NCBI GenBank assembly: GCA_950059285.1
Contig: CATLTV010000001.1
Location: forward strand, 1-64,000
Reading direction: 5' to 3'
DNA length: 64,000 nucleotides
Origin: an uncultured Pseudomonadota bacterium
GTDB lineage: Bacteria; Myxococcota_A; Bradymonadia; Bradymonadales; Bradymonadaceae
How positions within the stretch are numbered: the first letter of the stretch is position 1; each line of letters begins with the position of its first letter. Below are positions 2,540-61,737 of this stretch, one piece after another. The notes beneath the pieces are model-generated. The model worked only from the letters and a program-made list of their open reading frames with translations, did no database searches and was not told the origin of the DNA. The position numbers and the translations under genes are program-made.

Positions 2540-2591
2540 AAGAAAAGAGAGATGGCGCATGGGGCAACCCATGCGCCATCTCTCTTTTCTT
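2540..2591 (+). terminator. 24-bp perfect hairpin terminator
   Basis: Perfect inverted repeat: 24-bp arms (2540-2563 and 2568-2591) around a GCAA loop. The left arm is purine-rich and the descending arm is pyrimidine-rich (TCTCTTTTCTT). It lies 45 bases after the PAAEE lipoprotein stop. It is one of the window's family of unusually long stems. Confidence 0.85.
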
Positions 2592-2769
2592 GTGTTGCCG
2601 TAATCTTGGATTTATCCAGACGTTGCTTGACGCTGTGTGTGATGCAGTGCAAGATGCGGCAAGAGCGGATATAGCCAGTGTCACTGTAGCTTTTGATCAA
2701 GTTGGAGTGTGTTAGGAACCGGGTTATGTTCAGGGATTGTGACAAGAATACATCAAGGATAGAAGAGCA

Positions 2770-3108
2770 ATGAAGATGTGTAGATTGAGTTTGGGTGCAT
2801 TGGTATTAATGTCTGGACTTACGGGATGCGCCACAGATTTGTATGCACCGTGTAATCTTGATCCTCAGTCAAACAACCCAACTCAGAGCACATGTGCCAA
2901 CGAGCTCGCAGGCGACGCTCAGGTGTCATGTGCCATTGAGAACTTCCTTCAGTGCGACACCAACGTGTGTGGCGCTTATGAGGGGAGTGATACGTTCTGT
3001 ACACAGGCTTGTATTGAGGATTCTGACTGCGAGTCAGGAGAGTGTCGAGATTTCAACATTATTGACCCTGGTACGGCGAGGTACTGTGTCTCACCTGATG
3101 CATTGTAA
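2770..3108 (+). CDS. Cys-rich lipoprotein
   Basis: Exported lipoprotein of 112 aa. The signal peptide carries a canonical lipobox L-T-G-C with C20 lipidated. The mature chain has ten further cysteines, including C-x6-C-x5-C style spacing late in the sequence (D-S-D-C-E-S-G-E-C), a disulfide-knot pattern common in secreted myxobacterial proteins. No catalytic motif is visible. The upstream ribosome site is weak (AGAAGAG). The gene stands alone between the 2540-2591 hairpin and the TPR cluster, and a Cys-rich lipoprotein of similar design is encoded at 29077-29610. Function unknown. Confidence 0.8.
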   Translation: MKMCRLSLGALVLMSGLTGCATDLYAPCNLDPQSNNPTQSTCANELAGDAQVSCAIENFLQCDTNVCGAYEGSDTFCTQACIEDSDCESGECRDFNIIDPGTARYCVSPDAL

Positions 3109-3337
3109 TCAGGAGTGAGAGCGCGCTTTTCTCGGGAGAGATCTTGGAGTAAAGTGTGGATGTCTGATTTATCGCCAGCGGTCCGTACATCAAGTATGTT
3201 GGTTGTGGTGTGGACGTCGGACATGGTGACTGGCAAGTGTATGGGATGATGGCTCTGCAATAAGGTAACTTTGGGACAGGGAACATCTTCGCACCCACTG
3301 AATCAATTGAATAAATTCATGAAAGGAAACGCCTGAT

Positions 3338-5005
3338 ATGTTCAATATCGAGAAGAGAACAGTGAAGCAGCGTCTAGTGCAAATGATGTGTCTTGCGCAG
3401 TTGGGGCTTGTGACGTTTGGAGGGATGAGCGTTGTGAGTCCTGGCGATGTTTTTGCTCAGGATGAAGGTGGGGAAGATGATGGCATGAGCTTCGGCGTGG
3501 ATGAGGTTGAGGATGTGGATCCCAACTCGGCAGCGGCCCAGTACATGGAAGAGGGCAAGCGTCTCTACAAGAAAGAGAAGTATGCTGAAGCGAGCCTGTT
3601 GTTCTTCAAGGTGTTGTCTCAGGAAGATCCTGGTAGTGAGGCGTTGATTCCCGAGGCTGAGTACGAGCTTGGCAAGACATTGTTCAGGATGGAGCTTTAC
3701 CAGGGAGCGTTGACCTACTTTGGTCGCGTGGTGGATGCGGGTGAGATGCACCCGTATTATCTGCAGACCTTGCGAGGGCTTGTGCTGTTGTCTGATGAGA
3801 TTCCATCGGACCAGACCTTGATGATGCGCCTGTCTGCGTATGCCAGCCAGTTCCCCGAGAATGTGCCCAAGAAGTACCGTGATAGCTTTGCCTATCTTGT
3901 GGGGCGTTATTTGTACTCTTCAGGGGAGTATGAGCAGGCGCTTGAGCTGTTGAAGTTCATCAAGCCAAGCAGCAAGTATTATCTGCCTTCACGTTACATC
4001 TCTGGTGTGACACATGTGGGTAACTATGATGCAAAGCCGGCGGTGGCATCCTTCAAGGATGTGCTTCGTCCGTTGACTCGTAAGCTTGAAGAGGGGTCAT
4101 TGACCATTGAGGAGAGGGCATTGCTTGAGCAGACCTGGTTGGGTATGGCTCGCGTGTTCTACTCCACAGGTGAGTACAACAAGGCACTGAAGTATTATGG
4201 TTTGATTCCAAGGAAATCACCCGAGTGGCCCAAGGCATTGTTTGAGTCAAGCTGGGCATACTTCCAGCTTGACCTCGCCAACAAGGCGCTTGGTAACTTG
4301 CACACTTTGAACTCGCCGTTCTTTGCAAACTTCTACAGCCCCGAGGCGCCCATCCTTGCAGGCGTGATCTTCTTCTACAACTGCAAGTACTCCAGGGTCA
4401 GGTACGAGCTTGAGGAGTTTGAGTACTCCTATCTTCCTGTGAGAGAAGAGATCGATGGTTTGCTGGCCAAATACGAAGATCCTGCCGAGATTTACACCTG
4501 GCTAGAGGAGCTTCAGAAGGGTGCCAGCAGTGGTGAGGATGAGCAGTTGATGCGTATTCTTGCTGCAAGTGTGGACGACAAGGAGATTCAGCGTAAGATC
4601 GATCTTGTCCGTGATATTGACAAGGAGCTTGAGAAGCTCAAGGAGTTCCCCAACACATGGCGCAACAGTCCGCTCGGGACTGTGCTTGTGCAGGACTCCT
4701 CGGTGGCCAAGGAATTTGCCATCAGCGAGCTGGGAGAGCTGGTTCGCGCAAGGCTTGAGCGTATTCAGCGCGAACTTGTTGACTTGAACGTCAACAGGGA
4801 GAGGATTCTGTTTGAGGTTGACCGCGCCGAGCGTGGTAAAATCGAGGCAGAACTCAGGGCCGAGATGACCATTGACTCAAACGACACGAAGACCAAGAAG
4901 GTCAAGGTGACCGATGAGCAACTGTACTGGACCTTTGATGGCGAGTACTGGAAGGATGAGTTGGGATTCTACCAGTTTACGGTGAACTCATCCTGTGTAC
5001 GCTAA
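3338..5005 (+). CDS. periplasmic TPR protein at head of Glt-like cluster
   Basis: Secreted tetratricopeptide-repeat protein, 555 aa. The signal peptide spans about residues 1-40 (cleavage near V-F-A/Q), followed by an acidic linker and TPR units beginning around residue 68 (A-x-Q-Y-M-E-E-G-K-R-L-Y). The repeats run to roughly residue 330; a charged, coiled-coil-like part (about 430-520) and a distinctive tail (F-D-G-E-Y-W-K-D-E-L-G-F-Y) follow. The start is supported by AAAGGAAA about ten bases upstream. It precedes the GltD-like gene by about 270 bases, separated by a hairpin terminator, so it may be a separate transcription unit. By context it is a periplasmic component of the same envelope assembly; the exact orthologue is uncertain. 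Confidence 0.8.
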   Translation: MFNIEKRTVKQRLVQMMCLAQLGLVTFGGMSVVSPGDVFAQDEGGEDDGMSFGVDEVEDVDPNSAAAQYMEEGKRLYKKEKYAEASLLFFKVLSQEDPGSEALIPEAEYELGKTLFRMELYQGALTYFGRVVDAGEMHPYYLQTLRGLVLLSDEIPSDQTLMMRLSAYASQFPENVPKKYRDSFAYLVGRYLYSSGEYEQALELLKFIKPSSKYYLPSRYISGVTHVGNYDAKPAVASFKDVLRPLTRKLEEGSLTIEERALLEQTWLGMARVFYSTGEYNKALKYYGLIPRKSPEWPKALFESSWAYFQLDLANKALGNLHTLNSPFFANFYSPEAPILAGVIFFYNCKYSRVRYELEEFEYSYLPVREEIDGLLAKYEDPAEIYTWLEELQKGASSGEDEQLMRILAASVDDKEIQRKIDLVRDIDKELEKLKEFPNTWRNSPLGTVLVQDSSVAKEFAISELGELVRARLERIQRELVDLNVNRERILFEVDRAERGKIEAELRAEMTIDSNDTKTKKVKVTDEQLYWTFDGEYWKDELGFYQFTVNSSCVR

Positions 5006-5013
5006 GATGACAC

Positions 5014-10128: not shown

Positions 10129-10130
10129 GT

Positions 10131-10180
10131 AAAAAAGAATGAGGCCGAGCTGACCAGTCAGCTCGGCCTCATTCTTTTTT
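10131..10180 (+). terminator. 24-bp hairpin terminator
   Basis: Perfect 24-bp arms (10131-10154, 10157-10180) with only CA between them, starting two bases after the GltE-like stop. The left arm begins AAAAAAGAATG and the right arm ends CATTCTTTTTT, so the U-tract is paired within the stem. Confidence 0.88.
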
Positions 10181-10270
10181 ATTTTTCATGGAACATGAAC
10201 CTGTTTGAGGTGTCAGAAGTTATGCGTAAATTATAAAGTGAGCAGGATAAAACAACAGTGGGAGGTTGGT

Positions 10271-14068: not shown

Positions 14069-14136
14069 GAAAAGAAGAGAACGCAAGAGGCGCCTGCTGA
14101 CATGTCAGCAGGCGCCTCTTGCGTTCTCTTCTTTTC
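14069..14136 (+). terminator. 68-bp loopless perfect palindrome
   Basis: Perfect palindrome with 34-bp arms and no spacer (centre TGACA/TGTCA), starting six bases after the FHA-AgmX stop. Arms run purine-rich to GAGGCGCC and back. Presumably a terminator; the lack of a loop is unusual. Confidence 0.88.
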
Positions 14137-14870: not shown

Positions 14871-14934
14871 AAGACAAGAAAGCAAGAGGGCGCGATGGCT
14901 GACAAGCCATCGCGCCCTCTTGCTTTCTTGTCTT
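14871..14934 (+). terminator. 30-bp hairpin terminator
   Basis: Perfect 30-bp arms (14871-14900, 14905-14934) around a GACA loop, ten bases after the AgmX lipoprotein stop. The descending arm is CTCTTGCTTTCTTGTCTT. Confidence 0.88.
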
Positions 14935-16456: not shown

Positions 16457-19400
16457 ATGACTTTCGAGAGCCAGGTTCAGTCATATTTTGCAGCCCTAGA
16501 GGCAGATCCTCATAACATGAATGCACTCGCCAGTTTGCGCGACCTGTACAAGGAACGCGCGGATTGGGGAGAGCTGATTAGCGCGTTTCACGAGCAGGCC
16601 CAGCAGTCCGCCAACGCGGAGCTTCAGGCGCGCTATTTGTTTTCGGCCAGTCGTCTGGCCAAGGATGGACTTCGTGATACGGAGCTTGCGTCAAGACTTC
16701 TTGAGCTTGCGCAGGGCGCAGGTCAGCAGACAGGAGTCCTGTACGAGATTCAGCTGTTTGCCTACGAACTTCATGAGCAGTGGGCGGAGCTTGAAGGGTT
16801 CTTTGAGCAGGCCAGCGAGCATGTCGGCGATACTCGACTGAAGGCGCGTCTGTATACCCAGCTTGGTGATGTTTTTAAGAATACGCTCGAAGATGCGGAC
16901 CAGGCGCTTGCCATGTACGACTACGCGGGCCAACTCGATACCCAGAACCAGGTGCCCTTGCGACGTAAGCAAGAGATTTATGAGTCCCGAGGGGCTGCCG
17001 ACGAGCTTGTCGCTTCGCTCTATCAGGAGCTTGAGCTTAGCCAGGATGATGAGCGCAAGCTTGAGCTGTTGATTCGCATGGGACAGACCTATGAGAGCGC
17101 AGGCCAGCATGACGCTGCAATTCAGTGCTACCAGAGCGTTCACGACGCGCTCCCCATGGAGTCACGTGCTCGCGCAGGTCTTGAGCGTCTTGGACAACCT
17201 GTGCAAGCTGTGGAGCAAGAACCTGCCTACGGTATCGATGAGTTGTCGGGTGATGAGGCTCCGCTTGAGGGTGTGGAGGTCCCTGTCTCTGCTGGATTTA
17301 GCGAGGAAGAGGCAAGCGGTGTAACACCTGTAGACGAGGACGCAACCATGCAGCACATCCCTGCGATGTCTGCTGATATGGTGGAGGAGCCACCTCAGAC
17401 AGGTGCTACCGAAGAGTTTGTGCTGTCCGATATTGTCGAGGAACAAGCAGAAGAGTCTGCGCCCGTTGAGGTTGAGAGTGTGCCCGAGCCACCTCAGGCA
17501 CCACCTGTACATCAGACCGAGGAGTTTGTGCTCTCGGATATGGTTGAGCCCGAGGTTGAAGAAGTAACCCCAGAGATCGAGCCTGAACTTGAGCCCGAGG
17601 TTATCTCCGAGGTTGAGGTTGCTCCCGAAGAAGATGTGGTTGAGGAGCCTGTAGAGCCCGAAGAGATCCTCGCCGTACCACCTGAAGAGGAAGGTGAAGA
17701 AGACGTATATGAGGTCTTTGAAGAGGACTTCACGCCTGTCGACGATTACGCGGATGAGCCCGAGGAGGATGTCTCTGCGGACGCAGGTTCAGAGAGCTGG
17801 ACCGCTCAGTTTGAGCGTAATGTGGAGCTTGTAAAGAGCGATGTGTCCGAGCGTGAGCGTCAGATCGCGCTGCACAATGCAGCGTTGCTTGAGTGGCTCC
17901 ATCGCAGTGAGTCTGCTGGCCTTGGCTTGGACCTCTGGAGCGTGGCTTTTGAGCAAGGTCTTGGCGAGTATCTCTATGAGAACTTTGCATTCCGTTACAG
18001 CGGTGATGAGTTCTGGACAGGCGTGCTTGAGCTTGCTCAGGAAAAAGAGCAACCCACACGATTGCAGGCCGAGATTGCGCTCTTTTATGCACACAATCAG
18101 GAGCGCGCAGCTGAGCTTGTCGCAGAGGGATCTCTTGAGGATCTTGCGCAGTTGCTTGAAGACCGCGAGGCCGCCATTGATAATTGGCGCAAGTACCAGC
18201 GCAGCGTGGAACAGCGTCACCCCGATCTTGAGCGCGACCAGAAGAACCTCGTCGTGTTCACCGAAATGGGCAAGATGGCAAGGTTGCTTGCAGACGATGA
18301 AAAGCTCCTTGATGCGCTTCGTCGCCTGGACCGTGTGAGCGAAGCTCCTTACATCAAGGGTACACTCCAGCTCATTTATCTTGAGACAGACAAGTGGCCT
18401 GCCTACGTGGATCTTGTCAAGCAAGAGGCCGAGGCGCTCCCTGAAGATATGGATGAGGCTCGTATTATCCTCTTCCGCGAGGCGATTCGTGTGTACACAG
18501 GGCCCATGACGCACGATATGCAAGCGGTCTCCATGTACAAGAGGATCCTCGAAGTCGATCCGACCGATATGGAGTCCATTGATGCGTTGATCGAGCTGTA
18601 CGAAAAGAACAACCGCACCACTGATCAAATTGCGCTCCTTCAGCAAAAAGTGGACCTCGCCAGGGGCAAACGCGCCAAGGTGCGCATCCTCTCGGATGTG
18701 GCCAAGACCTATTTGAGCAAGCGCAACCAGGCCGAGGCAATCAAGGCATATGAGCAGGTCCTTGAGATTGCACCTCACGATCAGGAGGCGTTGGAATTCC
18801 TTCGTGAAATGTATGAGAAGCGTCGTGACTGGACAGGTTTGATCGATGTCTTCAAGCGTCAGATCGCGCTGATGGGTTCTGCGCAAGAGCGTCTTGATGG
18901 TTACAAGAGCGCCGCGCAGGCTGCCTCTGACAACATCAGGGACCCCGAGCCAGGTATCGAGCTGTGGAGCGAGGCGCTCAAGCGTGCTCCTCAGGATATG
19001 GAGGTGCTGGGTAACCTTGAGGCTCTGTACGAGAAGAAGCGTGATTATGAGGAGCTCGCGACGATTCTGGAGCGTCGTGTCAAGCTGGAGTCTTCACCTG
19101 ACGAGAAGATGAAGATCTACCAGAAGCTTGGCATGTTGCTTTCAGACAGAGTGCAGGCCCCCGATCGCGCGATACGCGCATGGCAAGGCGCGTTGCGTCT
19201 TGACCCCAATGACCTGAAGGCGCGTAAATCGCTTGAGCGTCTGTACATGGAGCACAAGCGTTGGGATGATCTTGAACGTCTCTACGCAAGCCAGGGGGCT
19301 TATGCCGACCTTGCTCGTGTGCTCGAGACACTTGTGGGCGCGAGTGATTCGGATGAAGACAAGGTCGAGCTTCTTTTGAGGAGTGCTGCCCTGTGGCAGG

Positions 19401-22400
19401 ATCGCCTTGATGATCTTGCACGTGCAGAGCGCGCACTGGATCGTATCCATCAGCAGATTGACCCTACGCACGAAGGTGCTGCTCGTGGGTTGCTCTCGAT
19501 TTATGAAGCTACCGAAAACCATGAAGGGCTCAAGAAGGCATATCTGATCATTCTTGAACATCAGGAAGATCTTGCAGAGCGCCGTAAGGTGCAGGTTGCT
19601 TTGAGGACATTGCACGAGCAAAAGCTTGGCAACATTGAAGAAGCATTCGCCTGGGCTGGTCAAATTGTTCAGGAAGATCCTTCTCGCGTGCAGGATGCTG
19701 CGGAGTTCGAGCGACTCGCTGGCCAGATTGACGCGTGGTTCTCCGTGGTTGAGATGTACCAGGATGCCATGAGCAAGGAGGACTGCGATGATGCGTTGCG
19801 TCTTGACCTGAAAATGCGCCTTGGTCGTGTGTTGTCAGAAGAGCAGGGCAACATGGAAGAAGCTCTGTTTGTATACCAGAGCATTCTTGATGATGTGCCA
19901 GGTCATACAGACGCGATGAGCGCCATGGCCTCTATCTACGAGAGACAGGGGCGCTGGGATGAGTTGATGACCATCTATCAACGTCGTTTGGAGCTTGTGG
20001 ATAGTGCAGAAGAGCGCGTCGTGATTCTTCATGGCACAGCTCGTATCGCTGAACATCAGGCAGGAGACAAGGCCAAGGCCCTGAGCATCTATCAGGAGTC
20101 TTACGAGCTTGCTCCCACGCACTTGCCCACGCTCGTTGAGCTTCACCGCCTGTACCAGGAGCTTGGTGATACCGCCAACGTGGCGCAAATGTGTCGCGAG
20201 CAAATTGAGCTTATTGATGCCATCGCGCTTGAGCGCGCAAAAGAGCGCGGCTCTGTGAGCACCACGGATGTGGCATCATTGCTCCCTGCCGATGCTGCCA
20301 TGTGGGGCGCCTCTCGCGTGGAAGCTCCTGATCTTGGCGAGATCTCGTCGAGCCTTGGTGAGGAGTCCTCATCCTCTCTTGGTGAAGAGTCATCCAGCGA
20401 AGATCTCGATTCCGAAACAGGTGAGGATGAAGCGCTCAAGCCGCTGTATCTTGAGGATGAGCTTGAGCGTTTGATTGCGCTGAACCTTGAGCTTGGTGAG
20501 ATCGCAGCGAACGAGGGTTCACAGCCTGGAGAGGCGCTGATCGCTCTTGGTCGTGTGTTGGTGATGGATCCAGATCATGTGCGTGCGCTTGCTCTGGTTG
20601 AGCCATTCCTCTCTCATGAGTCGGCTGAGGTACAGGTTGCTGCCTGTGATATTTGTGCTCCTGTGTACGAAGTGCATGGTCAGTGGGATAGCCTCGTGCA
20701 CGTCTTGCGCATCAAGAGTGGGCATGCATCGCACACGCTGAAGATCGAGCTGCTTAGCAGGATCGCACAGATTTACCTCGAGGAGCTTGGCCAACCCGAG
20801 AGCAGTTTTGAGTTCTATGCTCAGAAGTTGCGTCTTGTGCCAGAAGACACAGACACTCGTGCACAGCTGCACCTTTTGGCTGATGCTCTTGGTGACTGGC
20901 CAAAGCTTGTCGCGCTGTACAAGGAGATCTTTGCAGAGCTTGATGGCGAGATTTGGCGAGATTATGCGTTTGCATTGGGTCAAATGTACTCGGATAGAGT
21001 GGCTGCGCCTGATGATGCAGCGAGGATGTATTACAAGGTCCTTGAGAAGAATGACTCCGATGTACAGGCGCTTGATGCGTTGCAGGATCTGTTCATGCGT
21101 GCCGAGCAATGGCAAGACATGCTTGATGTGTATGATCGTAAGATCAATTTGTATCAGGATGATGCTCAGCGTGTACGCGGGCTTCGTCTTGAGCTTGCAG
21201 GCGTCTGGGAGGTTCATCTTCAGGATCTTGGTGAGGCGATTGAGGTCATTCAACGCGTCCTTGCCGACCACCCAGAAGACCAACAGGCGCTTGATATCTT
21301 GCAGCATTTGCAGTCAGAGCGTGGTGACTGGGAAGATGTGGCATCGACCTTGATGCGTAAGTACGAGCTGGCAGAAGATGCTCAAAAAGATGCGCTGAAA
21401 ATTGCCCTTGGCGAGGTTCAGGAGCAGCGTCTGGATCGCCCCGAGATGGCGGCGACGCTTTACGAAGAGGTGCTTGAGAAGTCACCTGACAGCGAAGATG
21501 CTGTGGTGGCCCTGTTCCGAGTGATGAACAGTGAAGGTACTCCTTCTGATGTCACGCGTCATGTGGCGTTGTTGTTGGAGCCATGGTTCAATCAGCGTGA
21601 GCGTTGGCAGGAGATGATCTCTGCGCTTGAGGCTCAGGCGCGCACGGCACCTTCACGTGACGACAAGATCGAGCTCCTTCATCGTGTCGCGCGTCACTAT
21701 GAGTATCAACTTGGTGAGCCCACCAGGGCGCTTGGCGCATATAGCCTTGCCTTTGCAGAGGATGTGCATCACGAAGAAACCGTCAGCAACATGTATCGTA
21801 TCGCGGAGCAGAGCATCGCATGGGATAGCCTCGTGCAGGTGCTTGAAGAGACCGTGGAACAGACCGAGGATTCGGACGCTCAGCGTGAACTCCTTCGCCG
21901 TGCTGCTTCCATCTATGTGGACCACATTGGCGATGTGGACGCGACCGCAAACTGTCTTGAGCGTGTGATCGAACTTGTGCCTGATGATCTTGAGTCCATT
22001 GAGGATCTGGAGAACATCTACCGTCACTTGCAAGACTGGGAGAAACTCGTTGGCGTGCTCAAGAGCAAGGCCAATATCATGGACGACTTCGAGGCCAAGA
22101 AGACGCTCCTTCACCAGGCTGGTACAATCTATGAGGAAGTCAGTGAGAGACCTCAGGATGCAATTGAGGTCTACAAGGACGTGCTTGACCTTGACCCACA
22201 AGACACACTCGCCATTGATCGTCTGGAGGTGCTTTACACCAACGACTCCAACTGGATTGAGTTGCTTGAGGTCTACAAGCGCAAGTACGAACTTGCAGAG
22301 CATGATGAAGCCCGTAAGGATCTCCTCTATGTGACAGGTGCCATCTACCAGAACGAGCTTGAGGATCTCCCCGAGGCGATCGACGTCTACCGTCGTATCC

Positions 22401-25400
22401 TTGATATTGATCCCATGGAGCTTGGTGCGCTTGAGAAACTTGATGAGCTTTATGAGAAGAGTGAGCAGTGGATTGATCTTGAGCAGACACTTGAGCGTGA
22501 GCTTGAGTTGACTCAGGTCCCCAATGAGCAACACCACCTCAAGTGGCGTCTTGGTCAACTTCATGAGCTTCATCTTGAGGATGGTGCTCGCGCTGTATCC
22601 ATTTACCAGGAGGTCTTGCAGGACAACCCCGCACATGAGCTCTCCTTGAACACACTTGCTGACATGATTCAGCGTGGTGATCATGAGCTTGAGGCTGCCG
22701 AGGTACTTCGTCCTATTTACGAGGCAAGTGAGCAGTGGGAGCAGCTTGTTGAGGTGCAGCGTTTGTTGCTTGGCTCCACCGAAGGTGCCGAGGGACGCGT
22801 GGCGATCCTCAAGGAAATTGCAAGCATTCAGGAAGGTTGTCTTGATGACAAGGCCGAGGCATTCACTGCATATGCCGAGGCACTGTCCGAGGTTCCTGGC
22901 GATGAGATGATCCTCGATCAGCTCGAGCGTCTTGCTGCGGAACTCTACGCATGGGACCCCTACATCGACCTGCTCGATCAGCAGATCGAGTTCACGGATG
23001 ATGTGGTTGCACAGAGCTTGATGCAACGCCGTGTGGCTCAGGTCTACGAAAATCAGATCCAGGACAGCGGCGCTGCGATTGATCGTTACAACCGCGTCCT
23101 TGAGCAGGACCCCATGGATGAGCTCGCGCTTCCCGCGCTTGATCGTCTCTATATGCAAGAGGCGCGTTGGGAAGAACTTGCCGATGTGCTTGAGCGTCGT
23201 ATCGAGCAGAGCACAGATCCAGATGAGCGTCTTGCGTTCAGGTTGCGTCAGGGCACCTTGCTCAGGGATGCACTTGGCGATGTGCAAGCTGCGCTCAACA
23301 CCTACCAGACCATTCTTGCTGATGAACCTGAAGAGCCTCAGACCATTTCTGCACTTGAAGAGATGTTCATGGCAGGACAGGCGTCAGAGGCAATCTCTGA
23401 AATTCTTGAGCCTTACTACCTCGCACGCGGCGAGCATCACAAGCTCATCGAGATGTACACCCAACGCCTGCATGGTGTGACTGATGCGGATGAGCGTCAT
23501 GCCTTGTTGATGCAGGTTGCTCGCGTGTACACCGAGGAGCTTGTGCAGGAAGTGGATGCGCTCCAACCGCTCTCGGCAGCTCTTTACGAGAAGCCAGATG
23601 ATGAGCACATCATGGAAGAGATGGAGCGTATTGCCCGTGCTCATGATCAGTGGCCCACTGTGGCGCAGACCTACATGGGTGTGCTTGAGCAGGTCGAACT
23701 TGAAGATGAGCAAAAGCTTGCCATGTGGCTTCGATTGGCCAATGCGATCGACATTGAGATGAACATGCCTGCTGATGCAGAGACCGCATATCTCAACGTC
23801 CTCGCGCTTGATCCTGGTCAACCTCATACACTCGCTGCGCTGGATCGCATCTATGAATCACAGCAAAGCTGGGCCGAGCTTGCCGAGATCCTTGAGCGTC
23901 GTGTCGTGGAGACCATTGAGGACGATGAGCTCGTGGAGTTCAACACTCGTCTTGCTCGACTTTACCGTGACCAGCTCGCTGAGCCTGAGCGTGCGATCAA
24001 TTGTTTCCAGGCCGTCATTGATATTGATCCTGGCAACCTCTCCGCTCTGGAAGAGCTTGAGAGTCTTTATTATGCCACGCAGGACTTCGATGCTCTGTAC
24101 AGGAACCTCTCACGTCAGGCTGATGTGACCATGGATCCTGATCGTCAGGCGGATCTTCTCTCGCAACAGGCGACGCTTGCTGAGGAGGCGCTTGATCGTC
24201 GCGACGATGCTATCGAGTTGCTTCAGCGCGTGATTGACTTGCAGCCTGATAACAAGGATGCACATCAGAAGCTCAGGTTGATCTACATCTCTGAAGGTCG
24301 TTGGGCTGATGTGGTTGAGGTTCTTGAGCGTGAAATCACGCTGACCGTGGAGCCCGAAGAGCAGATCGCAATCTATGAGAACATGGGGATCATCTGGAGC
24401 GATCATCTTGATGATGAAGTGCGCGCTCTCGATGCCTGGAGTGCTGCGCTTAGCATTGACCCCAATCACTTGAACGCTCTTGTGGCGATGCATGATATCT
24501 ACGCACGTCGCTCTGATTATCATGAGCTTGCCACCACGCTTGAGAGGATGCTTGACCATCCCGAGCTTGAGGATGGACGCCGCCTTGAATACTGGGTGGA
24601 GTACTCCGATGTGTTGGGCGACATGTTGCAGCGTCCTGAGGAAGCGATTCAGGCATGGCGTCAGGTGATGATGCTTGATCCTGGCAACACGATGGCAATT
24701 GATGCGCTTGAGCGTCTCTACCTTCAGGAAGGTCATTGGGAGGAAGCTGTCACTGTCCTCGATACTCGCCTGGACACCATCACAGATCCCGAACATCAGC
24801 TCTTTGTGGCTCGTCAGATCGCACAGTTGCTCGATGAGCAGATCGGTGCTCCTGTCCGCGCTGCCTCCTATCACGAGATGGTGCTTGAGCTGGACCCACA
24901 GGATGAGAATGCATACAACGCGTTGAATACTGTGTATCAGGATCTTGGCACGCCCGAGTCGTATGGCTCGCTTGTCAACCTCTACCTCACACATGCTGAG
25001 GTTGTGGGTGATGATGCCGAGGCACGTACACAAACGCTTCGTCAGGCAGCTGCGACCTTTGAGAACTCGCTTGGAGATCAGGCAAGCTCTTTGTTGGTGC
25101 TCCTCTCGGCGTTGACGTTGGACAGCCTCTCGGATGAGGATCTTATCCGTGACCTTGAGCGTCTTGCTGATGACACCAATCTCCATGGTGAAGTTGTGCA
25201 GCGTTACCAGGGACTCCTTCAGGAGGCGACCGACGAGCGCGATCTGTTTGATCTCCATCGTTACGCGGGTCGTATGTTGGCAGGCGCACTTGAGCAGCCT
25301 GATGATGCGATTTATCACTACCAGAGCGCATGGCGTCTTGATCCTGAGAACCTTGATGTGCTCATCAAGCTTGAGGAGCTTTACCGTCGTATTGCGGCGT

Positions 25401-28400
25401 GGCCAGAGCTTGCTCAGACGCTTCATGCGTGTGTTGAGCTGGTGATCGATCCCGTTGAGAAGATCGATGTCTGGCGCAAACTCGGTGAGGTCTACGAGAC
25501 TCAGCTTGCAGATGTCGACAACGCGATTGCTTCTTATGAGCAGATCCTCTCCATTGATGAAACTGACTTGCTCGCCATTGAGAGCCTTGAGCGTATCTAC
25601 GAGGCTTATGGCAAGTGGGAGATGCTCATTGATATCTTGCGTCAAAAGGTGTCCACGAGCTTTGACCCCGAGGAAAGTGTCCAGATCAGGTTCAGGATCG
25701 CTACCATCTATGAACAGATGCTTGATGATCCTCAGCGTGCCAAGGGCGCATATCTTGACCTCCTGAGTGTGGATGAAGGCCATCGCGACAGCTTGCTTGC
25801 GTTGGAGCGTCTGTACACAGACAGTCAGGAATGGAGCGAGGCTCTTGAGGTGTATGATCGACAGCTTTCGGTGACGTATGAGCCCGATGAGCTCGTCGCC
25901 ATCTATGGTAAGATCGCATACATTCATGAGGAGCACTTCCAGCGCGCACCCGAGGCGATCGATGCGTATCGTAAGATCCTTGAGTTTGATCCTTCAAACG
26001 AGAGCGCGATCCAGAACCTTGAGCGCCTGTACTACAACGAATCCCAGTGGCCAGATCTTGTGGACATTGTGGAGCAGCATATTCAGCTGACCGAGGATTC
26101 CGAGGGCAGGGCAACCTTGCTCAATGAACTTGCGCGCGTGCATCGCGACCAACTTCAGGACCCACACTCCTCCATTGATGCGTTTGTGCGCTCTCTGGAT
26201 GTGATGCCTGTGCAGCCCGAGCCAATGCGAGAGCTTGCTCTGTTGTACGAGGATACTGATAACTGGGATGCTGCTGTACAGGTTTACGAGCGTATTGCCG
26301 AGAACTCACTGGATACACAGGAGCAGATCGAGCTTTACGATCATATTGGTGCCATCTTCGATATGAAGTTGATGGACGAAGTGCGCTCGGAGCAGGCTTA
26401 TCTCTCCTCGCTGGCGCTGAATCCTGCACATGTCAACGCAATTGAGGCGTTGCGCTCTATCTACGAGCGCCGTGGCGACTGGCAAGCGATTATTCATATC
26501 TACAAGAAGGCCGAAGGCGCGTCGCGCTCGCTTCCTGACAAGGCCAGCTACCTTGCTCGCGTGGGCCGTATCTATGACGACCATCTGGACGATATCGTCA
26601 GTGCATTGCGTTACTATGAGCAGGCTCAGGAGCTTGACCCCGATGTGGTCGAGGCCGCAGGTCCGCTGATTGATGTGTATATGCGTGAGCGTCGTTACGC
26701 CAGGGCGTTGCCTCTGCTTGAGAAGCTGCTTGATAAGCTTCAGGCTGATGGTGATGTGGCGATGGAAGAGCTTCACAAGCGTTACTTGCAAATGGCGCAG
26801 GCAAACGAGAGCCTTGACCGTCTTGAGCCTTCGCTTGAGGCATATCACAGGGCCTATGAGTACAACTCATCTGATCGTCAGACGATGATGGGTCTTGGTC
26901 GTCAGCTCTTCAAGCGTGAGGACTACGAGGCTGCCTTTAAGATCTACCAAAACATTCAGCTTCAGCATCTCAGTGAGCTTGATGGTGAAGAGGCCAGCGA
27001 GGTCTTCTACAACGCAGGTCTTATCAAACAACGTGTGGGCGATAAGCCTCGCGCCATCGAGTACTTTGAGAAGGTGTTGGACTACAACCCTGATCACAAG
27101 GAGAGCCTCAGTGCTTTGCTTGAGAACTACGAAGCTGGTGGATACTGGGATCGCTTCATTGACCTGAGCAGGCGACTGCTTGAGCTTGAGACTGATGAGA
27201 AGATCAAGTTCGCCAAGCTCTCTCAGATTGGTGACATCTATGCCAAGGAAGTTCATGATCCTGGCATGGCGATGCAGACCTATCTTGAAGCTCTGGAGCT
27301 TCAACCTCAGAGTGTGATTGTGCTTCGCAAGCTGCTTGATCTTTACACCAAGACCCGCCAGTGGGTTGAGGCGATCGATATGCTTGAGCGCCTGATCGAG
27401 CTTGAGGCAGATGCTGGCAAGCGTGCCAAGTTCGCGTACACCGTGGGTGTGATTTACCGCGACGAGGTGCACTCCAACTCTGATGCGATCAAGGCATTTG
27501 ATGTCGCGCTTGATAACGATGTGCACATGCTCAAAGCGTTTGAAGGTATTGACCGTATCCTCACCGATAACAAGGATTGGAAAGAGCTTGAGCGTGCCTA
27601 TCGCAGGATGCTCAAACGCGTGGCCGAGTTCCAGCATGAGGAACAAATGGCAGCGCTGTACATGATGCTCTGGAAGAACCTTGGTGAGATTTACCGCTCC
27701 CGTCTGGGTCACGTGAAGAGCGCGATCAAGGCGTTTGAAATGGCCAGTGAGCTCAACCCAGGAGATGAGCAAATCCACCTTATCCTTGCGCAGCTCTATG
27801 AGCGTTCAGGTGAAGTTGGTGGCTCTGGCGTGGTCAAGGAGCACCGTGCTCTGATCAAGAATAACCCATTCAGGATCGAGAGTTACAGGGCTTTGTTCAA
27901 GGCTTACATTCAGGGCAAGGAGTACGACAAGGCATGGTGCATGGCCAGCGCGCTCTCCTTCTTGCAATCTGCTACAGAGCAAGAGCAGTCCTTCTACACC
28001 CAGTATCTTGGTAAGAACCTGAACGCGGCCAAGGCGACCTTTAACCTTGAGCTGTTCAGCAAGTTGTACCACCCCGATCAGGATGCGTTGACCACGCACA
28101 TCATGGGTCAGCTCTCACTTGTCTTTGCTGAACCATACTCGGGCGATCTCCGCGATATGGGCATCAACAAGAAGAAGGATCTGCTTGATCCAAACGACAA
28201 GCTCCTCTTCTGTAAGATCTACACCTATGTGGCTGGCCGCATGGCTCCTGTGGGTCTGACACCGATGCCCGAACTTTACCTGCGACGTGATCAGGCGCTT
28301 GGTATGCGTAACGCGAAGGTGATCCCAACCGCGTTCATCCTCGGGGCAGACATGTTCCAGGGTAAGGATGACCGTGAGCTTGCGTTTATCATTGGTAAGC

Positions 28401-28861
28401 GTCTTGGTTGGATGCTCCCAGGTCACTACCTCGGTAGCTGTGGTTACCCCACGGAGTGGCTCAAGGCGTTCTTCATGGTCGCGCTCCACCTGTCTAACCC
28501 AAGCCTTGGTCTGGACAAGCAGATTGGACCTAACGCCGCAGATCTGATTCAGGCCGTGCAGCAAGCAGATAGCCGCACACCTGGTCTGATGCTCAACCTC
28601 CAGAAGGGTGCACGTCAGTACCTTGCTCAGGGCAAGAACCCCAACCTCTCCAAGTGGTTGACTGCTGTGGACCACACCACATCTCGCATTGGTTTGCTGA
28701 TGTGTGGTGACCTTCACAAGGCCGCAAGTTGCATCAAAAACGATGCCATTCCTGTCGGTAAGTCCTCCATCAAGGACAAGATCAGGGAGCTTGTACTCTT
28801 TGCCATCAGTGAGGAATACTTTGAGCTTCGTCAACAACTTGGGCTCGCCATTGGTGCATAG
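16457..28861 (+). CDS. giant TPR scaffold protein (AgmK/GltI scale)
   Basis: About 4,134 aa, almost entirely tandem TPR helices. The frame is open to a TTG at 16385; the ATG at 16457 starts a TPR-like sequence at once, but neither has a clear ribosome site. There is no signal peptide or membrane span, so cytoplasmic location is the simplest reading. After about 270 residues of TPR comes an acidic P/E-rich insert (17220-17800) with a twice-used T-E-E-F-V-L-S-D motif; a Ser-rich insert lies at 20340-20430. The rest is dozens of units of about 70 aa with A-L-x-x-L-x-x-L-Y and W-x-x-L signatures. The last ~300 residues are non-TPR, with G-A-D-M-F-Q-G-K-D-D-R-E-L-A-F as a landmark. Size and context resemble AgmK/GltI; a scaffold role is inferred. 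Confidence 0.85.
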   Translation: MTFESQVQSYFAALEADPHNMNALASLRDLYKERADWGELISAFHEQAQQSANAELQARYLFSASRLAKDGLRDTELASRLLELAQGAGQQTGVLYEIQLFAYELHEQWAELEGFFEQASEHVGDTRLKARLYTQLGDVFKNTLEDADQALAMYDYAGQLDTQNQVPLRRKQEIYESRGAADELVASLYQELELSQDDERKLELLIRMGQTYESAGQHDAAIQCYQSVHDALPMESRARAGLERLGQPVQAVEQEPAYGIDELSGDEAPLEGVEVPVSAGFSEEEASGVTPVDEDATMQHIPAMSADMVEEPPQTGATEEFVLSDIVEEQAEESAPVEVESVPEPPQAPPVHQTEEFVLSDMVEPEVEEVTPEIEPELEPEVISEVEVAPEEDVVEEPVEPEEILAVPPEEEGEEDVYEVFEEDFTPVDDYADEPEEDVSADAGSESWTAQFERNVELVKSDVSERERQIALHNAALLEWLHRSESAGLGLDLWSVAFEQGLGEYLYENFAFRYSGDEFWTGVLELAQEKEQPTRLQAEIALFYAHNQERAAELVAEGSLEDLAQLLEDREAAIDNWRKYQRSVEQRHPDLERDQKNLVVFTEMGKMARLLADDEKLLDALRRLDRVSEAPYIKGTLQLIYLETDKWPAYVDLVKQEAEALPEDMDEARIILFREAIRVYTGPMTHDMQAVSMYKRILEVDPTDMESIDALIELYEKNNRTTDQIALLQQKVDLARGKRAKVRILSDVAKTYLSKRNQAEAIKAYEQVLEIAPHDQEALEFLREMYEKRRDWTGLIDVFKRQIALMGSAQERLDGYKSAAQAASDNIRDPEPGIELWSEALKRAPQDMEVLGNLEALYEKKRDYEELATILERRVKLESSPDEKMKIYQKLGMLLSDRVQAPDRAIRAWQGALRLDPNDLKARKSLERLYMEHKRWDDLERLYASQGAYADLARVLETLVGASDSDEDKVELLLRSAALWQDRLDDLARAERALDRIHQQIDPTHEGAARGLLSIYEATENHEGLKKAYLIILEHQEDLAERRKVQVALRTLHEQKLGNIEEAFAWAGQIVQEDPSRVQDAAEFERLAGQIDAWFSVVEMYQDAMSKEDCDDALRLDLKMRLGRVLSEEQGNMEEALFVYQSILDDVPGHTDAMSAMASIYERQGRWDELMTIYQRRLELVDSAEERVVILHGTARIAEHQAGDKAKALSIYQESYELAPTHLPTLVELHRLYQELGDTANVAQMCREQIELIDAIALERAKERGSVSTTDVASLLPADAAMWGASRVEAPDLGEISSSLGEESSSSLGEESSSEDLDSETGEDEALKPLYLEDELERLIALNLELGEIAANEGSQPGEALIALGRVLVMDPDHVRALALVEPFLSHESAEVQVAACDICAPVYEVHGQWDSLVHVLRIKSGHASHTLKIELLSRIAQIYLEELGQPESSFEFYAQKLRLVPEDTDTRAQLHLLADALGDWPKLVALYKEIFAELDGEIWRDYAFALGQMYSDRVAAPDDAARMYYKVLEKNDSDVQALDALQDLFMRAEQWQDMLDVYDRKINLYQDDAQRVRGLRLELAGVWEVHLQDLGEAIEVIQRVLADHPEDQQALDILQHLQSERGDWEDVASTLMRKYELAEDAQKDALKIALGEVQEQRLDRPEMAATLYEEVLEKSPDSEDAVVALFRVMNSEGTPSDVTRHVALLLEPWFNQRERWQEMISALEAQARTAPSRDDKIELLHRVARHYEYQLGEPTRALGAYSLAFAEDVHHEETVSNMYRIAEQSIAWDSLVQVLEETVEQTEDSDAQRELLRRAASIYVDHIGDVDATANCLERVIELVPDDLESIEDLENIYRHLQDWEKLVGVLKSKANIMDDFEAKKTLLHQAGTIYEEVSERPQDAIEVYKDVLDLDPQDTLAIDRLEVLYTNDSNWIELLEVYKRKYELAEHDEARKDLLYVTGAIYQNELEDLPEAIDVYRRILDIDPMELGALEKLDELYEKSEQWIDLEQTLERELELTQVPNEQHHLKWRLGQLHELHLEDGARAVSIYQEVLQDNPAHELSLNTLADMIQRGDHELEAAEVLRPIYEASEQWEQLVEVQRLLLGSTEGAEGRVAILKEIASIQEGCLDDKAEAFTAYAEALSEVPGDEMILDQLERLAAELYAWDPYIDLLDQQIEFTDDVVAQSLMQRRVAQVYENQIQDSGAAIDRYNRVLEQDPMDELALPALDRLYMQEARWEELADVLERRIEQSTDPDERLAFRLRQGTLLRDALGDVQAALNTYQTILADEPEEPQTISALEEMFMAGQASEAISEILEPYYLARGEHHKLIEMYTQRLHGVTDADERHALLMQVARVYTEELVQEVDALQPLSAALYEKPDDEHIMEEMERIARAHDQWPTVAQTYMGVLEQVELEDEQKLAMWLRLANAIDIEMNMPADAETAYLNVLALDPGQPHTLAALDRIYESQQSWAELAEILERRVVETIEDDELVEFNTRLARLYRDQLAEPERAINCFQAVIDIDPGNLSALEELESLYYATQDFDALYRNLSRQADVTMDPDRQADLLSQQATLAEEALDRRDDAIELLQRVIDLQPDNKDAHQKLRLIYISEGRWADVVEVLEREITLTVEPEEQIAIYENMGIIWSDHLDDEVRALDAWSAALSIDPNHLNALVAMHDIYARRSDYHELATTLERMLDHPELEDGRRLEYWVEYSDVLGDMLQRPEEAIQAWRQVMMLDPGNTMAIDALERLYLQEGHWEEAVTVLDTRLDTITDPEHQLFVARQIAQLLDEQIGAPVRAASYHEMVLELDPQDENAYNALNTVYQDLGTPESYGSLVNLYLTHAEVVGDDAEARTQTLRQAAATFENSLGDQASSLLVLLSALTLDSLSDEDLIRDLERLADDTNLHGEVVQRYQGLLQEATDERDLFDLHRYAGRMLAGALEQPDDAIYHYQSAWRLDPENLDVLIKLEELYRRIAAWPELAQTLHACVELVIDPVEKIDVWRKLGEVYETQLADVDNAIASYEQILSIDETDLLAIESLERIYEAYGKWEMLIDILRQKVSTSFDPEESVQIRFRIATIYEQMLDDPQRAKGAYLDLLSVDEGHRDSLLALERLYTDSQEWSEALEVYDRQLSVTYEPDELVAIYGKIAYIHEEHFQRAPEAIDAYRKILEFDPSNESAIQNLERLYYNESQWPDLVDIVEQHIQLTEDSEGRATLLNELARVHRDQLQDPHSSIDAFVRSLDVMPVQPEPMRELALLYEDTDNWDAAVQVYERIAENSLDTQEQIELYDHIGAIFDMKLMDEVRSEQAYLSSLALNPAHVNAIEALRSIYERRGDWQAIIHIYKKAEGASRSLPDKASYLARVGRIYDDHLDDIVSALRYYEQAQELDPDVVEAAGPLIDVYMRERRYARALPLLEKLLDKLQADGDVAMEELHKRYLQMAQANESLDRLEPSLEAYHRAYEYNSSDRQTMMGLGRQLFKREDYEAAFKIYQNIQLQHLSELDGEEASEVFYNAGLIKQRVGDKPRAIEYFEKVLDYNPDHKESLSALLENYEAGGYWDRFIDLSRRLLELETDEKIKFAKLSQIGDIYAKEVHDPGMAMQTYLEALELQPQSVIVLRKLLDLYTKTRQWVEAIDMLERLIELEADAGKRAKFAYTVGVIYRDEVHSNSDAIKAFDVALDNDVHMLKAFEGIDRILTDNKDWKELERAYRRMLKRVAEFQHEEQMAALYMMLWKNLGEIYRSRLGHVKSAIKAFEMASELNPGDEQIHLILAQLYERSGEVGGSGVVKEHRALIKNNPFRIESYRALFKAYIQGKEYDKAWCMASALSFLQSATEQEQSFYTQYLGKNLNAAKATFNLELFSKLYHPDQDALTTHIMGQLSLVFAEPYSGDLRDMGINKKKDLLDPNDKLLFCKIYTYVAGRMAPVGLTPMPELYLRRDQALGMRNAKVIPTAFILGADMFQGKDDRELAFIIGKRLGWMLPGHYLGSCGYPTEWLKAFFMVALHLSNPSLGLDKQIGPNAADLIQAVQQADSRTPGLMLNLQKGARQYLAQGKNPNLSKWLTAVDHTTSRIGLLMCGDLHKAASCIKNDAIPVGKSSIKDKIRELVLFAISEEYFELRQQLGLAIGA

Positions 28862-28883
28862 GTTCAAGCGACGTTGACAACGA

Positions 28884-28947
28884 GCAGATACGCGAAGAGG
28901 GGCGGCCAGTTACTTCAGTAACTGGCCGCCCCTCTTCGCGTATCTGC
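28884..28947. terminator. 31-bp hairpin, first of a tandem pair
   Basis: 31-bp perfect arms with a 2-nt centre (TC); after one mismatch a further 5 bp pair (CAACG with CGTTG, outer limits 28878-28953). It lies between two convergent genes, so it can terminate both. Its inner core GGGGCGGCCAGTTAC is shared with the next palindrome. Confidence 0.88.
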
Positions 28948-28957
28948 CCGTTGCAGG

Positions 28958-29033
28958 GATGAAAAAGGAAGGCCCGTGGGGGCGGCCAGTTACCTAGGTA
29001 ACTGGCCGCCCCCACGGGCCTTCCTTTTTCATC
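28958..29033. terminator. 76-bp loopless perfect palindrome, second of a tandem pair
   Basis: 38-bp arms with no spacer (centre TACCT/AGGTA). The core GGGGCGGCCAGTTAC matches the preceding hairpin, but the outer arms (GATGAAAAAGGAAGGCCC here) are unrelated to it. It sits 43 bases past the stop of the minus-strand lipoprotein gene. Confidence 0.9.
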
Positions 29034-36372: not shown

Positions 36373-36434
36373 GAGCCCGAGGAGGGGGCGGGCCAAAAAA
36401 TCAAAGTTTTTTGGCCCGCCCCCTCCTCGGGCTC
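36373..36434 (+). terminator. 28-bp hairpin terminator
   Basis: Perfect 28-bp arms (36373-36400, 36407-36434) with a 6-nt loop TCAAAG. The inner stem is A6/T6 and the outer part contains GGAGGGGGCGGGCC. Located 75 bases after the 158-aa gene. Confidence 0.88.
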
Positions 36435-37985: not shown

Positions 37986-38840
37986 ATGCGCGCGAAAATT
38001 GCTATCCAGGAACAGAGTCACGAGTTTATTCATTCGATCCCGTCCGTCAACTGTGCTCCTGGTGGAGCACGTGTTCAGCACTGGCCCATCGGTGTGGAGC
38101 GTTATCGTGTCACGGGATTGCCCGAGTCAATTGATGCGTTGATCCTGACCTCGGATCTTCAGGGTGCAGATCGCCATGATGTGTCTGTGTTACATCGCCG
38201 ACTGGTGGGGCATGTCGTCGCCGAGCATCTGGAGATGTTATGCCACACAGAGACGCTACCACCCGCAGAGCGTTGCGGTGTACTGCTTGCAGGCGATCTC
38301 TTTGCACACATCTCTCTGGATAAGCGCGGTGGTCTTGGTGATGTGATACCAGTCTGGAAGGACTTTGCGTCACGGTTCAGGTGGGTCACAGGTGTGGCAG
38401 GTAATCATGACACGTTTGGTGGTGATACACGCAGTATGGCGTCACTCCATGCGTGTGATGGGTGCTACGGTCTGGATGGCGGTGTCGTGCATCTTGATTC
38501 TCTCTGTATCGGAGGCGTCAGCGGTGTTGTCGGCTCATCGGGTAAACCCTGGAAGCGTGCCCCAAAACATTTCGAGTCCATGCTCCATGACGTCCTTGAT
38601 CATGGGCCTGACATCCTCGTACTTCATCACTCGCCTCAGTTAATACAGGGCGAAGAACTTACAGGTAGTGAGCTTGTTGCAGATGTGCTTTCACATCATG
38701 CGACGCCGCTTTCTTTCTCTGTGAGTGGGCATGTGCACTGGCCATCCTCGCTACACATTAAAGAGGGGAAGCATCAGGCGCTTCCCCTCTTTAATGTGGA
38801 TCATCGAGTTGTAGTGCTCCAGCGAGAAGATCTGTTGTAG
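37986..38840 (+). CDS. calcineurin-like metallophosphoesterase
   Basis: Metallophosphoesterase of about 284 aa. Motifs in order: S-D-L-Q-G (normally D-x-H; here His is replaced by Gln), L-L-A-G-D-L-F, G-N-H-D, L-H-H-S-P and G-H-V-H-W-P. All dimetal motifs are therefore present except the first His, which may alter metal 1. The frame is open upstream to 37674, but that part is antisense to the ychJ-like gene. The ATG at 37986 with GGGAAAGG upstream is preferred; 37917 is possible. Substrate unknown. The 3' end carries a perfect hairpin within the coding sequence and overlaps a small convergent gene by 40 bases. Confidence 0.82.
   Translation: MRAKIAIQEQSHEFIHSIPSVNCAPGGARVQHWPIGVERYRVTGLPESIDALILTSDLQGADRHDVSVLHRRLVGHVVAEHLEMLCHTETLPPAERCGVLLAGDLFAHISLDKRGGLGDVIPVWKDFASRFRWVTGVAGNHDTFGGDTRSMASLHACDGCYGLDGGVVHLDSLCIGGVSGVVGSSGKPWKRAPKHFESMLHDVLDHGPDILVLHHSPQLIQGEELTGSELVADVLSHHATPLSFSVSGHVHWPSSLHIKEGKHQALPLFNVDHRVVVLQREDLL
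38754..38798. terminator. 19-bp hairpin inside a 3' coding end
   Basis: Perfect 19-bp arms (38754-38772, 38780-38798), loop ATCAGGC. It is inside the metallophosphoesterase frame, 40 bases before its stop, and two bases beyond the stop of the convergent small gene, which it probably terminates. Confidence 0.75.
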
Positions 38841-43631: not shown

Positions 43632-43699
43632 ATCAAGATAAAAGAGAGGGGGCGGCCTGTGATAGTCATCACAGGCCGCCCCCTCTCTTTTATCTTGAT
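43632..43699. terminator. 32-bp hairpin, first of a tandem pair
   Basis: 32-bp perfect arms (43632-43663, 43668-43699), loop AGTC. Core GGCGGCCTGTGAT/ATCACAGGCCGCC. Located 10 bases after the ABC-F stop. Confidence 0.9.
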
Positions 43700-43703
43700 G
43701 GAT

Positions 43704-43773
43704 GACCTAACAAACAAAGGAGGGGCGGCCTGTGATGACTATCACAGGCCGCCCCTCCTTTGTTTGTTAGGTC
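43704..43773. terminator. 33-bp hairpin, second of a tandem pair
   Basis: 33-bp perfect arms (43704-43736, 43741-43773), loop GACT. Its core is the same GCGGCCTGTGAT as the previous hairpin but with the complementary loop, i.e. the core in inverted orientation; the outer arms differ. Located 17 bases beyond the RRM gene stop on the minus strand. Confidence 0.9.
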
Positions 43774-45917: not shown

Positions 45918-45950
45918 TCAGGGGAGGTTCACGCTGTGAACCTCCCCTGA
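45918..45950. terminator. 15-bp bidirectional hairpin
   Basis: Perfect 15-bp arms with loop GCT. It starts 7 bases from the stop of the minus-strand DUF4442 gene and about 105 bases after the cryptochrome stop; it can serve both convergent genes. Confidence 0.82.
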
Positions 45951-50295: not shown

Positions 50296-50390
50296 TGATC
50301 TAGTACAGATGTGAACTTTAATCTGGATATTGCGTCAAAACATGACGCACATGTGCGTCATGTTTTGACGCGTTGCTTTGTTTTTGTTGT
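50296..50390 (+). ncRNA. candidate small RNA ending in a 40-bp palindrome
   Basis: A transcript from the promoter-like pair at 50260-50289 would run about 35 bases, enter the perfect 20+20 bp palindrome at 50332-50371 (GCGTCAAAACATGACGCACA and its complement) and meet a T-rich run (GCTTTGTTTTTG). The hairpin lies between two divergent genes, so it terminates neither of them; a separate short transcript would explain it. The palindrome could instead be a protein-binding site. No ORF of note. Confidence 0.4.
50332..50371. repeat. 40-bp perfect palindrome in a divergent intergenic region
   Basis: 20-bp arms without spacer, with an inner TGACGCAC/GTGCGTCA. Either a hairpin terminator of a small RNA or a symmetric binding site. 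Confidence 0.8.
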
Positions 50391-53419: not shown

Positions 53420-53491
53420 AGACATAGGCAGACCCAAAGAGGGGGCGACTTCGCTAGCGAAGTCGCCCCCTCTTTGGGTCTGCCTATGTCT
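53420..53491. terminator. 72-bp loopless perfect palindrome
   Basis: 36-bp arms with no spacer (centre TCGCT/AGCGA), between convergent genes: 9 bases after the thioredoxin-like stop and 11 bases beyond the kinase stop. Arms contain AAAGAGGGGGCG. Confidence 0.9.
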
Positions 53492-61544: not shown

Positions 61545-61546
61545 AG

Positions 61547-61617
61547 CCAAAAAAGAGGCCATCAGGGGGCGAAAATTTACTCCGTAAATTTTCGCCCCCT
61601 GATGGCCTCTTTTTTGG
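61547..61617 (+). terminator. 34-bp hairpin terminator
   Basis: Perfect 34-bp arms (61547-61580, 61584-61617), loop TCC, two bases after the glnS stop. It ends CCTCTTTTTTGG. Confidence 0.9.
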
Positions 61618-61673
61618 TGTCTTGTGAATTTTATAGCATTGGATAGAGCATGTCGTTTTGGACTCCAGACAAG

Positions 61674-61737
61674 GAGAAGGTGCGTCAAGGAGGGCGTGAT
61701 TTGCAGGCAAATCACGCCCTCCTTGACGCACCTTCTC
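61674..61737. terminator. 31-bp hairpin just before the AAA+ coding region
   Basis: Perfect 31-bp arms with AG at the centre, 56 bases after the glnS terminator and ending 8 bases before the ATG at 61746. Either a second glnS terminator or a leader hairpin of the AAA+ gene; it would be inside the frame if the ATG at 61650 were used. Confidence 0.85.

Follow-up and report, generated by a model that had tools for sequence, protein, structure and literature searches.

Hundreds of long, nearly perfect palindromes at gene ends of a Bradymonadaceae genome: probable two-way terminators that template switching may have shaped

The first 64,000 nucleotides of contig CATLTV010000001.1 (assembly GCA_950059285.1), from an uncultured bacterium of the Bradymonadaceae, carry a series of long inverted repeats, most of which lie at gene ends. 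This whole stretch is hereafter called the window. A first-pass annotation, made from the letters of the window alone, had listed fourteen such sites as a family of very long perfect palindromes. The family is real, as all 14 sites were found within a few bases of the positions listed. Twelve of them are perfect, with arms of 24–38 bp; a thirteenth (28878–28953) has arms of 37 bp with one mismatch, and the site at 45918 has modest arms of 15 bp.

In the left part of the window, perfect palindromes lie at 2540–2591 (arms 24 bp, loop 4 nt; 44 nt 3' of a short predicted open reading frame (ORF)), 10130–10181 (arms 25, loop 2; beginning 1 nt past the stop codon of a TPR gene), 14069–14136 (arms 34, no loop; 6 nt past an FHA/TonB_C gene) and 14871–14934 (arms 30, loop 4; 9 nt past a TonB_C gene). 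A convergent gap then holds a tandem pair, 28878–28953 (loop 2) and 28958–29033 (perfect, arms 38, no loop; predicted minimum free energy of the RNA −78.5 kcal/mol), whose members have the core GGGGCGGCCAGTTAC in common. They are followed by perfect palindromes at 34209–34282 (arms 36, loop 2; 5 nt past a peptidase M3 gene) and 36373–36434 (arms 28, loop 6; co-directional gap). Another pair of perfect palindromes, 43632–43699 (arms 32, loop AGTC) and 43704–43773 (arms 33, loop GACT, the inverted loop of its neighbour), lies in a convergent gap past an ABC-F-type ATPase gene and shares the core GGGGCGGCCTGTGAT. The short palindrome at 45918–45950 (loop 3) is found in a convergent gap past a photolyase gene, and the perfect one at 53420–53491 (arms 36, no loop, tip CTAG) takes up most of the space between two convergent genes, whose stop codons are 9 and 11 nt away. 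The last two are 61547–61617 (perfect, arms 34, loop TCC, or C(GGA)G in the complementary strand), 2 nt past the GlnRS gene, and 61671–61740 (arms 34 with one mismatch, perfect over 31 bp at 61674–61737, loop 2), probably 5' of the true start of a sigma-54 activator gene. Two perfect palindromes were absent from the first-pass list: one at 38754–38798 (arms 19, loop 7), within the 3' end of a metallophosphatase-like ORF, and GCGTCAAAACATGACGCACA at 50332–50371 (arms 20 bp), which lies in a divergent gap, does not follow the purine-rich design and looks like an operator-type site. The predicted RNA energies of the palindromes of the window range from −40 to −79 kcal/mol, and no Rfam family matches within the window. 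One ORF, some 4,130 codons long (16457–28861), takes up a fifth of the window. A search with GlnRS returned distant matches only, led by a Myxococcales MAG at 55%.

The source genome (6.65 Mb in 441 contigs, 95% complete) was sampled over 2.01 Mb, including the window, and scanned for palindromes, allowing no arm shorter than 10 bp, no loop longer than 10 nt and no more than one mismatch; genes were predicted by a simple caller trained on the same DNA. Arms reach at least 16 bp in 387 inverted repeats of the sample and at least 20 bp in 331, of which 304 are perfect. Arms of this last class mostly measure 30–38 bp and reach at most 41 bp, for a typical palindrome size of about 70 bases and a maximum of about 82 bp. 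The first 439 kb of the sample were partly picked by motif matches; since this part (78 repeats with arms of at least 20 bp) and the remaining 1.57 Mb (253) have close densities, the resulting bias is small. Extrapolation yields roughly 1,100 palindromes for the whole genome. This is a lower bound because many contigs break off within palindromes: of 71 ends seen, 11 lie no more than 60 bp from one, further contigs begin within half an arm, and ends lie inside arms at, for example, the starts of contigs C6, C15, C17, C18, C38 and C39 and the ends of C1, C27 and C33. The palindromes probably caused much of the fragmentation of the assembly, long ones may be missing from it, and the sharp cut-off at 41 bp may in part reflect a limit of the assembly. 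Two other contig starts, C28:1 (L197) and C50:1 (L232), carry apparent Illumina adapter or index sequences, an assembly contaminant.

A chance origin is excluded because first-order Markov sequence (673 kb) yields no arm longer than 14 bp. Perfect inverted repeats (arms of at least 10 bp, spacers of at most 8) amount to 11.85 bp/kb in the source genome, 1.79 in relatives and 2.57 in loci from diverse bacteria, the published bacterial mean density of inverted repeats being 3.14 (PMC13155455). For arms of at least 20 bp, the 331 repeats compare with one in 531 kb from 40 relatives and two in 800 kb from 80 loci of diverse bacteria. The core GGGGGCG...CGCCCCC occurs 145 times in the source genome (reversed-pattern control: 0), and GGGGGCGGCC...GGCCGCCCCC occurs 39 times there, whereas none of 378 other genomes of the phylum has more than one copy. 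As relatives and phylum genomes are nearly devoid of it, the trait is specific to the source genome among those compared, and a family- or phylum-wide trait is ruled out. A viral contig (L221) that carries the core motif has just a 15-bp palindrome in unrelated GC-rich DNA.

Palindromes are very unevenly distributed with respect to genes. They occupy 133 of 216 convergent gaps versus 18 of 233 divergent ones, the latter counted regardless of length (Fisher p = 7e-36). Their density is 4.72 palindromes per kb of convergent gap, 1.25 per kb of co-directional gap and 0.22 per kb of divergent gap. Short convergent gaps (60–99 bp) nearly all hold one (78 of 85), which spans a median of 84% of the gap. 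The median distance to the nearest stop codon is 14 nt. Co-directional gaps shorter than 60 bp, which are in the operon-internal range and too short for a palindrome, contain none.

The averaged 5' arm has a regular anatomy. From the tip outward, a pyrimidine closing base is followed by a T-rich segment at 3–6 bp, a GC-rich one at 9–15 bp (the GGGGGCG block), an A-rich one at 16–20 bp, a second rise in GC near 22 bp and an A-rich stretch up to about 32 bp. The innermost 6 bp are AT-rich (GC content 0.33–0.51) and are framed on both sides by the GC-rich block, which has a GC content of 0.83–0.87 at 11–13 bp from the tip before giving way to A-rich and T-rich sequence. In the transcript of either strand, a GC-rich stem would thus precede a T-rich strand, and a terminator scan gave matches on both strands. 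At least six T in 8 nt are found in 59% of palindromes in co-directional gaps (sense strand) and on 74% of the sides of convergent ones; palindromes located in divergent gaps or within genes reach 22%, and random intergenic DNA 17%. The T-rich arm is therefore a trait of gene-end palindromes and not of palindromes in general. The palindromes probably halt transcription arriving from either direction.

The arms are strikingly exact, with 33 mismatches, mostly transitions, in 8,884 stem bp. These are too few to reveal an RNA wobble signature, in which G-U would be tolerated in the transcript (13 G-T versus 10 A-C, without clear excess). The tips are also peculiar. Loops of 3 nt read C(GNA)G on one strand in 65 of 86 cases, compared with 1 of 20 controls (Fisher 5e-9); according to a passage in PMC6479982 citing Yoshizawa 1997, GNA loops form extraordinarily stable DNA mini-hairpins. 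Among tips without a loop, CTAG accounts for 31 of 102, although it represents 0.6% of the palindromic 4-mers of the genome, while C-TT-G and T-TT-A are the most frequent two-nt tips. Typical RNA tetraloops are lacking. In co-directional gaps, GNA lies in the transcript 11 times and its complement TNC 10 times, and CUUG and CAAG occur 6 and 7 times, respectively. A preference at the RNA level should be one-sided, yet these counts are even, and the tips therefore look set at the DNA level. The GNA strand has no clear bias relative to GC skew, and nearest-neighbour triloop energies computed with ViennaRNA (DNA and RNA parameters) were uninformative, these parameters having no loop-specific terms. 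Among pairs with the same inner 8 nt, loops are the same in 34 cases and inverted in 41, a pattern that copying in both orientations would give as well as loop inversion. Paired palindromes in one convergent gap can likewise share their core and carry inverted loops, as do those at 43632 and 43704 in the window (AGTC/GACT) and those at C40:18730 and C40:18815 (CAGA/TCTG).

The arms are mosaics of shared modules in shuffled combinations. The inner module AGGGGCGGCCATTTGAC recurs with five different outer arms and the middle module GCCAGAGGGGGCGGCC with differing inner parts; modules are shared across contigs, but most outer arms are unrelated yet perfect. Sharing of at least 18 nt is concentrated locally (4 of 294 pairs within 5 kb versus 2 of 25,686 inter-contig pairs). 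Near-identical palindromes of 65–70 bp with unrelated flanks are found at C23:4524 and C23:8571 and at C4:23624 and C4:24681, the unrelated flanks ruling out segmental duplication. Copies differ by changes found in both arms, and the dinucleotides that flank near-identical copies (CG/CG, CA/TG, GC/GC, AT/AT) are self-complementary and not clear target duplications. Two minor types were also seen: a sub-family of five palindromes with the inner arm TGATGCGA, a GAAAA or TTTTC loop and no GGGGGCG core (for example, C13:33763 and C13:36277), and palindromes with repeated TTGATAT-like motifs, unlike the main family, at C7:8782 and C7:17425.

Some palindromes lie in coding sequence. Fourteen of the 387 with arms of at least 16 bp are well within predicted genes, and eight coding palindromes with arms of at least 20 bp were observed versus none after synonymous codon resampling. 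In folP (C17:37881–37928), both 24-bp arms are coding (LEHGADII/NDVSAMLK) and all 24 positions pair, compared with 6–14 of 24 for the same 48 nt in 22 relatives and a mean of 6.4 (maximum 14) for random 48-mers. The stretch ends with F in 17 of the 22 relatives (GLGF, ALGF or similar) and with AMLK in the source genome, the AMLK codons being the reverse complement of the LEHG codons of the same gene. The palindrome thus overlies conserved codons without insertion, and on the simplest reading of the sequence the left arm would have been copied over the right one. Four further perfect in-gene palindromes (21–35 bp), at C42:12850–12891, C10:29922–29993, C4:13563–13615 and C7:5896–5945, fall in cutA, a gene for a Ser/Thr kinase and two more genes; for cutA, a protein alignment with PDB entries revealed no clear overwritten motif.

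Part of what had been proposed from the window alone is borne out by the genome. A scan of the kind that the first-pass annotation called for was run on the 2.01-Mb sample, and palindromes proved to be concentrated at gene ends, so that the outcome named there as refuting did not arise; this marking is strongest between convergent genes and does not cover the copies located well inside genes. The shared architecture supports the proposal of one family by design, the T-rich 3' arms at gene ends support the suggested role in termination, and the rarity of mismatches and the paired changes in both arms support the suggestion of active maintenance. The statement that sequences are unique to each site, which excluded copying, did not hold, since inner or middle modules recur in many palindromes, and a few whole palindromes at unrelated gene ends are near-identical copies. 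Likewise, selection for termination or protein binding alone fails to explain perfect arms of 30–41 bp, DNA-hairpin-type tips and the palindromes in folP, the kinase gene and other genes.

In several respects the palindromes resemble known bidirectional Rho-independent (intrinsic) terminators, with a GC-rich hairpin, A-rich 5' and T-rich 3' arms past stop codons and a preference for convergent genes (PMC1852404, PMC1590033, PMC6060812). They differ in their arms of 30–41 bp, nearly all perfect, their DNA-hairpin-type loops of 0–4 nt, their presence in nearly every short convergent gap and the related palindromes within genes. It is rather probable that they function as bidirectional intrinsic terminators and that their extreme length and perfection, which termination alone would not produce, result from a mutational process. 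The process proposed within this reading is quasipalindrome template switching, in which a jump of the nascent strand to another template at an inverted repeat turns an imperfect copy into a perfect one (PMC7202029). A 2022 study found template-switch footprints in RNA genes to be enriched for DNA-stable loops (GNRA, CTTG) and not for TNCG; loop inversion served there as the best evidence of such events (PMC8794818). The perfected repeats and DNA-stable loop motifs of the source genome resemble those of Ripley/Lovett template-switch mutations (PMC7202029, PMC8794818), and its inverted loops, though frequent, would also follow from copying in either orientation. Those events are known as rare and local, whereas the footprint proposed here would be genome-wide, with hundreds of products. 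Perfect repeats with concerted arms, for which template switching was proposed, are also known in protein genes of Nematomorpha (PMC6649704), but these are mitochondrial, coding and up to 284 bp long, whereas the present ones belong to a bacterial chromosome, lie mainly at gene ends and do not exceed about 82 bp.

The following model can be drawn. In the source lineage, the DNA polymerase would often switch template at quasi-palindromes. The nascent strand would fold on a short DNA-stable tip, either C-GNA-G or a two-base tip (such as CTAG, CTTG or TTTA), and copy one arm into the other over up to about 35–40 nt. An occasional switch to a neighbouring palindrome would spread and shuffle modules. 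At gene ends, where RNA polymerase would be stopped from both sides by a GC-rich stem plus a T-rich strand, the products would be tolerated or favoured; most of those in promoters and coding sequence would be purged. Whether the lineage as a whole has undergone strongly elevated, genome-wide template switching that palindromises gene ends and genes, so that much of its terminator repertoire was rebuilt as perfect palindromes of about 70 bp and their evolution was driven by mutation, appears evenly balanced.

The copies with unrelated flanks, the modules common to different contigs and the equal use of both loop orientations among relatives of one core would also suit a non-autonomous mobile palindromic element (REP- or MITE-like) inserting near gene ends and diversified by divergence and recombination among copies. 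REP/BIME elements with TnpAREP (RAYT) do form hundreds of extragenic palindromes near gene 3' ends; however, their hairpins are imperfect, conserved in sequence and associated with a Y1 transposase, whereas the arms described here are diverse and modular and a search for the Y1 (REP-type) transposase PF01797 gave no match in the source genome at its 95% completeness, versus matches in 15 of the 24 genomes searched. A mobile element is unlikely in view of this and of the absence of a common terminal sequence, the unrelated yet perfect outer arms, the strongly local distribution of near-identical copies, their flanking dinucleotides and the folP case.

Pure selection for very strong bidirectional terminators or for RNA 3'-end protection, with pairing kept by ordinary compensatory mutation, would account for the enrichment at gene ends and in convergent gaps, for T-rich arms restricted to gene ends and for the shorter bidirectional hairpins present in relatives. 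It is distinctly improbable, as pairing extends well past ordinary terminator stems, mismatches are nearly absent, tips show neither transcript-strand preference nor typical RNA tetraloops, and perfect palindromes also occur within folP and other genes. A function at the DNA level, such as cruciform formation or binding of a protein involved in nucleoid structure, DNA uptake or replication, is suggested by the AT-rich centre between GC-rich blocks, the DNA-stable tips, the strand-blind loops and the recurrent core GAGGGGGCG. In Neisseria and Pasteurellaceae, a recurrent DNA uptake motif in inverted pairs similarly builds terminators (PMC1852404), but such motifs are fixed, occur also singly and form stems of about 11 bp, whereas the core described here varies and, as a 12-mer, is almost confined to palindrome halves. 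GAGGGGGCGGCC, with 30+30 copies, is almost always paired within palindromes, whereas an uptake sequence is a fixed motif that is frequent outside hairpins. As no fixed recognition sequence was found and both the dependence on gene orientation and the T-rich arms indicate transcription, a DNA-level function seems very improbable.

Several points weigh against the proposal of terminators extended by template switching. That transcription ends at the palindromes and that template switching is the copying reaction are both things we infer from sequence features. In co-directional gaps, the antisense strand is nearly as T-rich as the sense strand (0.49 versus 0.59), so that one-way termination leaves much of the symmetry unexplained. 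The 65 GNA tips collapse to 19 distinct combinations of inner arm and loop, equal to the 19 distinct non-GNA ones; their enrichment is partly due to common descent, yet it is far above a rough expectation of 3%. Whole-palindrome copies with unrelated flanks also fit transposition. The perfection of the folP arms concerns a single gene, compared at about 55% protein identity, and all comparison genomes come from outside the source genus, which bears on the timing of arm changes. Lastly, no cause was found: both genes of the palindrome nuclease SbcCD are present and adjacent, Rho, whose loss might have forced intrinsic termination, is present at full length, and so is XseA, the large subunit of ExoVII, so that loss of none of them is the cause. 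A second, shorter Rho-like protein (C323:3559–4401) covers Rho positions 133–414 (about 366 bits) without the N-terminal part, and is also found in most relatives of the same family. In yeast, quasipalindrome mutations need high transcription, are promoted by RNA:DNA hybrids and translesion polymerases, and rise upon loss of RNase H2 (PMC3820800); by analogy, RNase H and transcription-replication conflict at gene ends may be leads for the trigger.

Taken singly, inverted repeats at gene ends, bidirectional terminators and template switching are familiar phenomena. In a partial search of the literature, no report was found of a bacterial genome with palindromes of such length, perfection and number, nor of a link between such palindromes and DNA-type tips and in-gene cases. 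How perfectly paired long RNA stems originate and are kept up is an open question, for which template switching has been proposed, usually from sparse footprints. A single genome with hundreds of apparent products, including graded similarity, local copying and coding examples, makes the mechanism and its genetic control directly testable. Palindromes of this kind disrupt assembly from short reads, so comparable lineages may be going unnoticed. These data suggest that a terminator repertoire may be reshaped by mutational bias, with selection acting as a filter.

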